Of a stretch of 39,241 nucleotides of DNA, positions 1,066 through 22,246 are shown piece by piece. The DNA is from Cupriavidus sp. (GTDB lineage Bacteria > Pseudomonadota > Gammaproteobacteria > Burkholderiales > Burkholderiaceae). The notes under the pieces are model-generated. The model saw only the letters and a program-made list of their open reading frames with translations. It had not been told where the DNA came from and did not search any database. Both the position numbers and the translations under genes were made by a program. Position 1 is the stretch's first letter. Each line of letters opens with the position of its first letter. The DNA is taken from contig JAFAJB010000231.1 in the NCBI GenBank assembly GCA_019236395.1, forward strand, positions 1-39,241, in the 5' to 3' direction.

Positions 1066-1207
1066 AGAGACGTGGCCGAGGGAGCGGCGAGTGCAACGAG
1101 CCGCAAAGCCTTGCGCAGCAAGGCATACAGGTCGAAGGCACTCCCCTGCTAAGGGAGCATCCGGGCCAAAACCTGGATCGAGGGTTCGAATCCCTCCGTC
1201 TCCGCCA
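1066..1207 (+). tRNA. tRNA-Ser(GCU) interrupted by a 48-nt structured insert in the D-loop (functional or pseudo-tRNA unclear)
   Basis: The 3' part is a clean serine tRNA: anticodon stem CTCCC/GGGAG around loop CTGCTAA (anticodon GCT at 1148-1150), long variable arm CCGGG/CCTGG, T-arm GAGGG-TTCGAAT-CCCTC, acceptor CGTCTCC, discriminator G and encoded CCA (1205-1207). The 5' part supplies acceptor AGAGACG (1066-1072), T8, G9 and D-stem GCC (1075-1077) with GAG. The partner half-stem GGC is at 1137-1139. Between GAG (1080) and AGG (1129) lie 48 extra bases that fold into two hairpins. Without them the molecule is 94 nt, the normal size for tRNA-Ser. The first acceptor pair is A-C, a mismatch. 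Whether this gene is processed, or is a dead attachment-site remnant, cannot be told from sequence. Confidence 0.7.
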
Positions 1208-1260: not shown

Positions 1261-1336
1261 TTTTTTCTGGAGCGGGTTTCCGAGGCGTGCACTGTCCGGT
1301 GGCTGTTACACCGACCCTCTCAGACGGAGTGCGAAC

Positions 1337-1525
1337 ATGGCGAAATCCAACCACCTCATCCAACGCGAAAGCACCTACTACTTTCGTCGCAAAATTCCCG
1401 GTGATCTTCTCGGGCACTACCCCGGCAAACGGGAGATCGTTCGCAGCCTCCGCACGAAAGACCACGACGAAGCCGCACGCATAGCGCGCCGCGTAAGCAC
1501 CCATTTGCGTCCAAAAATGGGCTGA
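1337..1525 (+). pseudogene. N-terminal fragment of a second integrase (DUF6538-like start)
   Basis: ATG at 1337 opens a frame starting MAKSNHLIQRESTYYFRRKI and continuing through GDLLGHYPGKREIVRSLRT and KDHDEAARIARRVSTHL. This is the characteristic N-terminal module (DUF6538 type) of tyrosine integrases that sit next to tRNA genes. Similarity ends at about codon 57 and a stop follows at 1523-1525; no core-binding or catalytic domain is found downstream. A full-length relative would have about 400-500 residues. The reading direction, away from the tRNA and into the window, fits an integrase of a genomic island inserted at tRNA-Ser whose remainder has been deleted. Confidence 0.75.
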
Positions 1526-16566: not shown

Positions 16567-16885
16567 GCGCCTCTCGCGTGGACCATAAGCGCGCGAGTGG
16601 CGCTACAGTCGACCAGAGTTGACCTCGGAGGCATGCCGCCGAGGGGCACGGGAGCGTCGTTCGTTTGCATGGCCCGATTTGTTGATCGCGTCGGTCGAAA
16701 TGACAATGGGGACCGAAGTCCCCAGCGGCTGTCTTTGTTTACAAGGCTTCAGCGGCCCCGGCGTTGGCTTCAGGCGGCCAGTGCGAAACGCTCATCGTTG
16801 GCGTTTATTGACTTGCTTCATTAACGTCGATCGCCTGACGGGTTGCCTGCGCCCCTTTGTACGCCCTGTCGAAACCGATACACCC

Positions 16886-16953
16886 CCACCTGAGCGCATC
16901 ACGATACGCTCAGGTGGAGGTGAGGGGATTCGAACCCCCGTCCAGAACGCCTC
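16886..16953 (-). other. 3' end of a tRNA/tmRNA-like molecule with overlapping hairpin (possible attachment-site remnant)
   Basis: On the minus strand a T-arm GGGGG-TTCGAAT-CCCCT (16939-16923) is followed by acceptor strand CACCTCC (16922-16916) and ACC-T where ACCA would be expected. This is the 3' end of a tRNA or tmRNA, but no matching 5' acceptor GGAGGTG and no anticodon arm is found at higher coordinates, and the hpf gene occupies the space a tmRNA would need. The end overlaps an 11-bp inverted repeat (CCACCTGAGCG at 16886-16896 with CGCTCAGGTGG at 16907-16917). Orphan tRNA/tmRNA 3' ends usually mark an attachment site of an integrated element; that reading is inference. Confidence 0.5.
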
Positions 16954-17131
16954 CAAGTTGCCGGAATCACAACCATGTTGCTGATCTGGGGGGGCTTAGG
17001 GCTTCTTCAAGACCTTTCGTGATGCGCGGATGTTGGAAGAGGACTTACTGGTCAACCCATGTGCGGGCGCGACCCATCGACCGCAACTTTCCGATACTGC
17101 AATCTAGTCGGCCGCACAGCGGCTTGTATCT

Positions 17132-20845: not shown

Positions 20846-22246
20846 ATGAATGTACTGATCATATTGATCTCACTGGCGTTCCTGATGCTGGTGGCCTATC
20901 GAGGGATGAGTGTCATCTTGTTCGCACCGATAGCGGCCATGGGAGCGGTAATGTTGACCGATCCCCAGCTAGTCCTGCCGATGTTCACTGGCTTGTTCAT
21001 GGACAAGCTGGCCCAATTCGCCAAGCTGTATTTCCCTGTATTCTTGCTCGGCGCAGTGCTTGGCAAGCTCATTGAGTTGTCCGGATTTGCCAAGTCCATC
21101 ATTGCTTCCGTTAGTCGCTTCTGCGGGCCGAACAACGCAGTGATTGCAATCGCAGTCGTGTGTGGTCTGTTGACTTACGGAGGAGTGTCACTCTTCGTCG
21201 TAGTGTTTGCGGCCTATCCATTCGCGGCGGAAATGTTCAAAGCCGCGAATTTGCCCAAGCGGTACATTCCGGCGACCATCGTTGCCGGGGGTGCAACGTT
21301 CACCATGGATGCGCTGCCTGGAACGCCCCAGATCCAGAACATCATTCCAACGACTTTCTTCAAGACCGATGCATGGGCTGCGCCTTGGCTCGGTCTGATT
21401 GGCTCAATCGTGGTGTTCGCAGGGTCGATTGCCTATCTGATGTGGTTGACCCGCCGCGCATCTCGCGCGGGCGAGGGATACGGCACGAACCTGATCAATG
21501 AACCCGCCGCGTTTGACCAGGAGCGCTTGCCCCATCCGCTGTTGGCCTTGGCTCCGTTGGTCACGGTGGCCGTGTTGAATAAGGTGTTTGGTGCCTATGT
21601 CTTTCCAGCGATCTATGACAAGAGCGTCAGTTTTGTTCCTGCAGTTATCGGCAGTGCCGCACCAGTAGTCCAAGACATCCAGAAGGTGTCGGCACTGTGG
21701 TCGGTCGAGTTGGCGCTTGTGTGCGGCATCATGGTCTGCCTGCTGACCGCATGGAAGGCAATTGCCAAGGGATTTGCCGAAGGCACCAAGAGCGCCGTGG
21801 GCGGTGCAATGCTCGCAACTCTCAACACCGCCACTGAATATGGCTATGGCGCGGTCATCGCGGCATTGCCAGGTTTTTTGATCGTTGCGGAAGCGCTTCG
21901 GCACATTCCCAACCCGCTAGTCAATCAGGCTGTCACGGTGACGACCCTTGCCGGCATCACAGGCTCAGCTTCGGGCGGGATGGGTATCGCGCTAGCAGCC
22001 ATGGCCGACACCTTCATCGCCAACGCGAAGGCCGCAGGCATTCCATTGGAAGTATTGCACCGAGTGGCATCGATGGCCTCGGGCGGCATGGATTCATTGC
22101 CGCATAACGGCGCCGTCATCACCTTCCTGGCGGTGTGCGGCTGCACGCATCGACAGGCTTACCCCGCAATCTTCGGGATCACGCTGATCAAGACCGTGGC
22201 GGTGTTTGCGGTGATTGCGACCTTTTACCTGACAGGTATTGTCTGA
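20846..22246 (+). CDS. GntP-family permease, probably 3-hydroxybutyrate transporter
   Basis: The 466-residue, highly hydrophobic protein has about 12-14 membrane segments and the GntP fold: MNVLIILISLAFLMLVAYRG, VCGLLTYGGVSLFVVVFAAY, FTMDALPGTPQIQNIIPTTF, NTATEYGYGAVIAALPGF, GITGSASGGMGIALAAMADT and ASGGMDSLPHNGAVITFLAV. It would be an inner-membrane proton-coupled carrier for a small organic acid. GGAGACAGG precedes the ATG. The flanking acetoacetyl-CoA reductase and 3-hydroxybutyrate dehydrogenase genes point to D-3-hydroxybutyrate as substrate; gluconate-type sugars acids are the family's other common cargo. Confidence 0.86.
   Translation: MNVLIILISLAFLMLVAYRGMSVILFAPIAAMGAVMLTDPQLVLPMFTGLFMDKLAQFAKLYFPVFLLGAVLGKLIELSGFAKSIIASVSRFCGPNNAVIAIAVVCGLLTYGGVSLFVVVFAAYPFAAEMFKAANLPKRYIPATIVAGGATFTMDALPGTPQIQNIIPTTFFKTDAWAAPWLGLIGSIVVFAGSIAYLMWLTRRASRAGEGYGTNLINEPAAFDQERLPHPLLALAPLVTVAVLNKVFGAYVFPAIYDKSVSFVPAVIGSAAPVVQDIQKVSALWSVELALVCGIMVCLLTAWKAIAKGFAEGTKSAVGGAMLATLNTATEYGYGAVIAALPGFLIVAEALRHIPNPLVNQAVTVTTLAGITGSASGGMGIALAAMADTFIANAKAAGIPLEVLHRVASMASGGMDSLPHNGAVITFLAVCGCTHRQAYPAIFGITLIKTVAVFAVIATFYLTGIV

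Follow-up and report, generated by a model that had tools for sequence, protein, structure and literature searches.

Islands of the Islander type, as described in excerpts of PMC4383910, have an intact tRNA at one end and, at the other, a tRNA piece that points the same way, with an integrase gene between them, and their crossover classes include the anticodon (A) and the T-loop/T-acceptor junction (J). Partial tRNAs at attR sites get mistaken for tRNA genes, according to an excerpt of PMC9897764. In the tRNA-dependent lysogeny of mycobacteriophages, integration does not restore the host tRNA, and the phage's own tRNA is required (PMC10865867, excerpt). In Caldiarchaeum, where a tRNA-Thr gene is disrupted, a mobile element is reported to lie between a tRNA fragment and a tRNA with an extra intron in the D-arm (PMC3293823, excerpt), and archaeal integrase sites can reach over the D-loop (PMC8371274, excerpt).

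We analysed a stretch of 39,241 nucleotides from a Cupriavidus sp. genome (the window; genome G000), in which positions 1066-1207 of the + strand consist of both parts of a tRNA-Ser(GCU) plus an insert of 48 nt in the D-loop (1081-1128). Our verdict is that this copy is neither an odd working tRNA nor a jumping repeat; it is most likely an unusual landing-site junction. As in the excerpted account of the Islander type (PMC4383910), one end has an intact tRNA, the other has tRNA sequence that points the same way, and integrase coding lies between them. Here, however, the far end holds not a fragment but an almost complete tRNA whose D-loop contains the 48-nt insert, and integrase genes are present at both ends (int1 and int2). 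Like the attR fragments of PMC9897764, as excerpted, it is tRNA-like sequence made by the integration of a mobile element; those fragments are partial, whereas the Cupriavidus copy has the 5' half too, interrupted. The tRNA-dependent lysogeny outlined in the excerpt of PMC10865867 was rejected as a model, since the Cupriavidus host tRNA is rebuilt and intact at the int1 end and it is the element's copy that is interrupted. The Caldiarchaeum case (PMC3293823, excerpt) likewise has a mobile element flanked by tRNA-derived pieces, of which one has additional D-arm sequence, but it is archaeal and its extra sequence is an intron, whereas Cupriavidus is a bacterium. In a search of the open-licence literature (D-loop insertion, attR/attP, tRNA-Ser islands in Cupriavidus, DUF6538 integrase), no title or abstract start described this element.

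The interrupted tRNA-Ser(GCU) copy and its flanks

An intact 94-nt tRNA-Ser(GCU) with anticodon gct was called by ARAGORN at G000:C64:8681-8774, on another contig than the insert copy and adjoining int1; the preliminary description of the locus, made from the letters alone, had proposed looking for such a second gene. Against this intact gene, the 5' part at 1066-1080 (+) is identical at 14 of 15 positions, the sole change being G1 to A, and the part at 1129-1207 (+), from the 3' side of the D-stem to CCA, is identical at 79 of 79. The comparison confirms the preliminary description in that both tRNA halves are present in order around the D-loop insert, and in that removal of 1081-1128 leaves the 94-nt length (142 - 94 = 48). 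The description had also argued from the A1-C72 mismatch that the copy is dead. The copy is indeed superfluous beside the intact gene, but A1 is not private decay: it is common to all four insert copies, in which the element-borne 5' part is identical.

The 142-nt form was found in three further Cupriavidus genomes, G014 (96% identity), G017 (98%) and G072 (99%), which rules out an accident of the G000 assembly (3.2 Mb in 259 contigs, 54% complete). Random decay, which the earlier description had also disfavoured, is unlikely, since the arrangement is common to four elements whose cargo largely differs. The block at 1015-1134 occurs once per genome in 4 of 60 Cupriavidus genomes, G000 included. 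A family-wide gap pattern gave matches in 75 of 398 genomes, and by eye these were tRNA-like only in the four known copies. An exact pattern, which diverged forms would escape, gave two records among GTDB contigs; among named records, Cupriavidus pauculus CCUG 12507 and Cupriavidus sp. YR651 have this segment. The insert segment had no match in a plasmid search and, by exact patterns, none in viral contigs, and eight phage records matched solely the common tRNA part, from 1130 onward.

In G014, G017 and G072, one contig each carries, in this order, the intact tRNA, int1, cargo, int2 and the insert copy, with distances between the tRNA starts of 12,743, 13,290 and 13,488 bp, respectively. The displaced copy at the far end has the same orientation as the intact tRNA, with native flank beyond it. 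In all four genomes, the intact copy is followed by one sequence type, element DNA that runs into int1. Behind the insert copies stands a terminator (1227-1267, +, in the window, by terminator scan) that is native to tRNA-Ser at other Cupriavidus loci, some of them without a visible recombinase start in the bases printed. This swap of flanks therefore places the crossover somewhere within the 79 nt common to both copies and assigns 1066-1128, together with the leader that precedes it, to the element. The two ends in G000 lie on different contigs, C64 and C79, so that their linkage rests on homology to G072: C79 is 96.0% identical to its right end over 1,235 bp, and C64 is 93.0% identical to its left end over 386 bp, by which the two ends are probably those of one element. 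The order, the orientation, the swapped flanks, the two integrase genes and their co-occurrence can be read directly from the genomes.

Because the native terminator follows the insert copy and element DNA follows the intact one, we conclude that 1066-1207 is very probably the attR junction of an integrative element of about 13 kb that inserts into tRNA-Ser(GCU). The attP of this element would contain a nearly complete tRNA-Ser copy, its D-loop interrupted by the 48 nt. Upon integration by a crossover within 1129-1207, the host gene would gain its 3' part from the element and remain intact, and the far end would receive the element's interrupted 5' part and leader, now followed by the host's displaced 3' part and terminator. 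What looks like a tRNA with a hairpin insert would thus be explained as an attachment junction, a warning against calling such genes introns or novel tRNAs.

Two integrase genes and the sister elements

The right end of the element carries int2 (1-889, -), a tyrosine recombinase gene by its translation and by Pfam and PHROG matches, of which 296 codons are present before it is cut by the edge of the window and contig; it matches Phage_integrase (PF00589) in Pfam at E 7.1e-12 and a PHROG integrase at E 2.1e-35. At E <= 1e-60, int2 is found in 4 of 60 Cupriavidus genomes, exactly those that have the insert block, and in a sample of 399 genomes of the order it had matches in G000 and G014 only. 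Twenty regions upstream of other int2-like Cupriavidus loci, scanned with a T-loop pattern, yielded three matches: G072 and G017, both known already, and G006 with a short form. The other integrase, int1, has an N-terminal DUF6538 and matches a PHROG integrase at E 7.6e-34; its match to PF00589 is weak (E 0.0065, below the cut-off), and no relatives were found among PDB sequences at E <= 1. Relatives of int1 (E <= 1e-40) occur in 10 of the 60 Cupriavidus genomes. In G000, int1 (G000:C64:7389-8570) contains one in-frame TGA; it may be a dead gene or the TGA may be an assembly error, and the G000 element itself may be dead.

An attachment site with a nearly whole, interrupted tRNA and two integrases is unusual compared with three sister elements, in which there is a mere 3' fragment of the tRNA. 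The elements of G021 and G075 have int1 relatives and no int2 match at E <= 1e-25, and their terminal tRNA fragment starts at CGAATCCC in the T-loop. In G006, an int2-like gene adjoins the site, no int1 match was found and the terminal fragment starts at the anticodon arm. The T-loop start and the anticodon-arm start correspond to the J and A classes, respectively, of the Islander scheme as given in the excerpts of PMC4383910. In the four copies that bear int2, the TACACT of the leader lies 164-165 bp from TTCGAATCCC, and in the two sister elements that lack an int2 match it lies 65 bp from CGAATCCC. We infer a T-loop crossover for int1 and an anticodon-loop crossover for int2; the T arm (1180-1196) and the anticodon arm (1141-1157) are candidate crossover cores. 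The four insert elements may be a fusion of an int1-type with an int2-type element.

The site bears traces of further elements. What remains of the left end of a further int1-type element lies at 1306-1495 (+), recognised by its reading frame: it has TTACACCG at 1306-1313 and, from 1337, an N-terminal recombinase frame that by eye resembles the start of the G075 recombinase. A similar truncated int1-type left end directly follows the insert copy near position 22148 of G072:C17. We take the truncated left ends in G000 and G072 as signs of repeated use of the tRNA-Ser site.

Insert, leader and predicted RNA

Between G014 and G017, similarity is found at the int1 end (85% over 1,423 bp), in three inner patches and in a right-end block of 192 bp (93%) that begins at CTGYTACACT and contains leader, tRNA and insert. 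In the window, the conserved leader (1018-1065, +) comprises TGCTACACT (1018-1026, with TACACT at 1020-1025), the pair CCACGC/GCGTGG (1034-1039/1045-1050) and GGTGTAA (1049-1055), and the start of the block is conserved despite different neighbouring DNA. At the left end of the element, TTACACCG occurs twice, and GGTGTAA is present in the right-end leader. The leader motifs are putative recombinase arm sites or an extended -10, and the arm-site role is given as putative because similar, TTACACC-like hexamers also occur inside the elements.

The insert itself contains two inverted repeats, 1084-1088/1100-1104 and 1108-1114/1118-1124. An alignment of the four copies has 7 variable columns out of 142 (1083, 1092-1096 and 1125), all of them within the 48 columns of the insert. 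None of these falls in the 24 stem columns, compared with 7 in the other 24 insert columns (two-sided p = 0.009 for four related sequences). The signal of stem conservation is modest, since just four related sequences contribute to it, and sites for protein binding would be expected to give the same pattern. Our guess is that both the insert and the TACACT/GTGTAA leader bind protein as DNA, be it as recombinase arms or for a directionality factor. If the insert were necessary for recombination, this would give a reason why an integrative element retains a nearly whole but interrupted tRNA, and bacteria would offer a counterpart to the disruption of archaeal tRNA genes by mobile elements that has been proposed. 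A more specific proposal, which we regard as unlikely, is that the element-borne tRNA-Ser copy is a double attachment site, used by int2 at the anticodon arm and by int1 at the T arm, with the D-loop insert as a docking segment that sets the geometry between the leader arms and the two cores; given the similar layout beside a distant int2 relative in phage Paku, interrupted tRNA copies might be a recurring attP design.

The same attR junction could also have arisen with the 5' tRNA part and the insert as a passive scar, left by an old imprecise excision or a tandem integration and spread by descent and by recombination among elements. The recombinase remnants that adjoin the site in G000 and G072, which indicate repeated occupation of the locus, are in keeping with such a history, as are the facts that only four related copies are known and that the sister elements do without the interrupted 5' part. 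However, across four elements of largely different cargo the insert stems and the 5' part of the tRNA show no change, whereas the leader linkers and the insert loops vary. We therefore hold a scar to be possible but doubtful.

A third reading makes the junction an expressed RNA. The interrupted tRNA would be transcribed from the leader, with TGnTACACT as an extended -10, and the 142-nt RNA or its processing would act as a tRNA or regulate int1 in the circular form. The position of the leader resembles, by eye, the promoter-leader layout of the host gene, the stems are conserved, and the 142 nt are more stable than 200 shuffled sequences (z = -3.43), as is expected of a tRNA. In the predicted fold of the window copy, however, the second hairpin has a mean pair probability of 1.0 and the first of 0.00, and the D-stem and anticodon stem are lost. 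Of the two consecutive hairpins in the preliminary description, both thus exist as inverted repeats in the DNA, but the second alone forms in the predicted RNA. In G000, G017 and G072, folding gave probabilities of 0.00-0.02 for the D-stem, the anticodon stem and the first hairpin (0.00-0.01 for the D-stem and anticodon stem), and the cloverleaf is kept in G014 only (D-stem 0.83, anticodon stem 0.67), which disfavours the earlier suggestion that the insert is tolerated in the folded RNA. Furthermore, a scan of 880-1350 for a sigma-70 consensus promoter found none, while it found the terminator at 1227; ARAGORN called no tRNA at 1066-1207, its only call in the window being a tmRNA; and the A1-C72 mismatch is present in all four copies. 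An expressed RNA is accordingly very unlikely, and a functional tRNA-Ser gene was rejected on the missing ARAGORN call and on cloverleaf stems that are improbable in three of four copies; the insert copy probably yields no functional tRNA.

A self-splicing or tRNA intron was also rejected. On the + strand at E <= 1, the Rfam list, from which three lower-scoring overlapping clan matches were omitted, showed no tRNA or intron family at 1066-1207, and the 48 nt sit in the D-loop. Archaeal tRNA introns are spliced, and we know of no such tRNA intron splicing in bacteria.

The preliminary description had favoured a small palindromic mobile element. Such a repeat, inserted into a tRNA-Ser copy, would account for the two inverted repeats, and a 23-nt motif (1102-1124) does recur, at G000:C76:3804-3826 with two spacer differences and at G069:C1 with a different spacer. 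Nevertheless, the proposed check for other genomic copies gave no second full copy in G000, where the 48-nt segment is whole only once and other matches span at most 38 nt; the motif occurs at most twice per genome; and the insert block is present once per genome in four of the 60 genomes. A small mobile repeat is therefore scarcely credible. For want of many dispersed copies, a dispersed palindromic repeat of the REP/RPE kind was rejected too. The mobile unit is instead the element of about 13 kb, whose attR junction we consider 1066-1207 to be. No recombinase was recognised among the ORFs listed near the G069 motif copy, and the motif may therefore be a common palindrome; the gene adjoining that copy is presumably IscS-like. 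At G000:C76:3804-3859, the motif copy lies a few bases before the 3' fragment of another serine-like tRNA, in which ARAGORN finds no tRNA, and the ORF preceding this motif copy was not recognised as a recombinase.

Phage Paku, viral motifs and cargo

Burkholderia phage Paku (MZ326863.1) has an integrase that is 32.5% identical to int2. The stretch beside it, annotated as tRNA-Ser, received no ARAGORN call and turned out to be the 3' half of the tRNA-Arg(CCG) of the host, Burkholderia. Before this 3' half lie 37 nt, preceded by a D-arm match at 15 of 16 positions that falls to 1 of 11 further 5', a single case judged by eye. The Paku attP thus likewise has an int2-like integrase beside a tRNA 3' part, then an insert, then a D-arm piece; in Paku, by contrast, the D-arm piece alone remains, the tRNA is a different one and there is one integrase in the stretch read. 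We claim no homology between the Cupriavidus and Paku inserts, as their similarity is weak: an equally good score was reached by 389 of 20,000 shuffled sequences and by 363 of the roughly 20,000 37-mers taken from the window. Among other phages with int2-like genes (52 records matched), six upstream regions, several of them short, showed no split tRNA by eye. A general att motif, GCAGCAAGGC, placed before tRNA T-arms gave 9 + 15 loci in viral contigs, many of them whole tRNA genes or unrelated and none with the same layout by eye. The longer motif GCAAAGCCTTnnGCnGCAAGGC gave two viral contigs with the same stretch, in which no tRNA was recognised in the bases printed.

Some of the cargo resembles anti-phage defence genes: in PADLOC, PDC-S06 was matched in G014 (E 2e-227) and RmrA in G072 (E 1.5e-183). 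Of the eight cargo proteins tried, four had weaker matches and two had none. Elsewhere in the window, 16679-17024 (-) encodes a permuted, two-piece betaproteobacterial tmRNA with the tag ANDERFALAA, which is ordinary.
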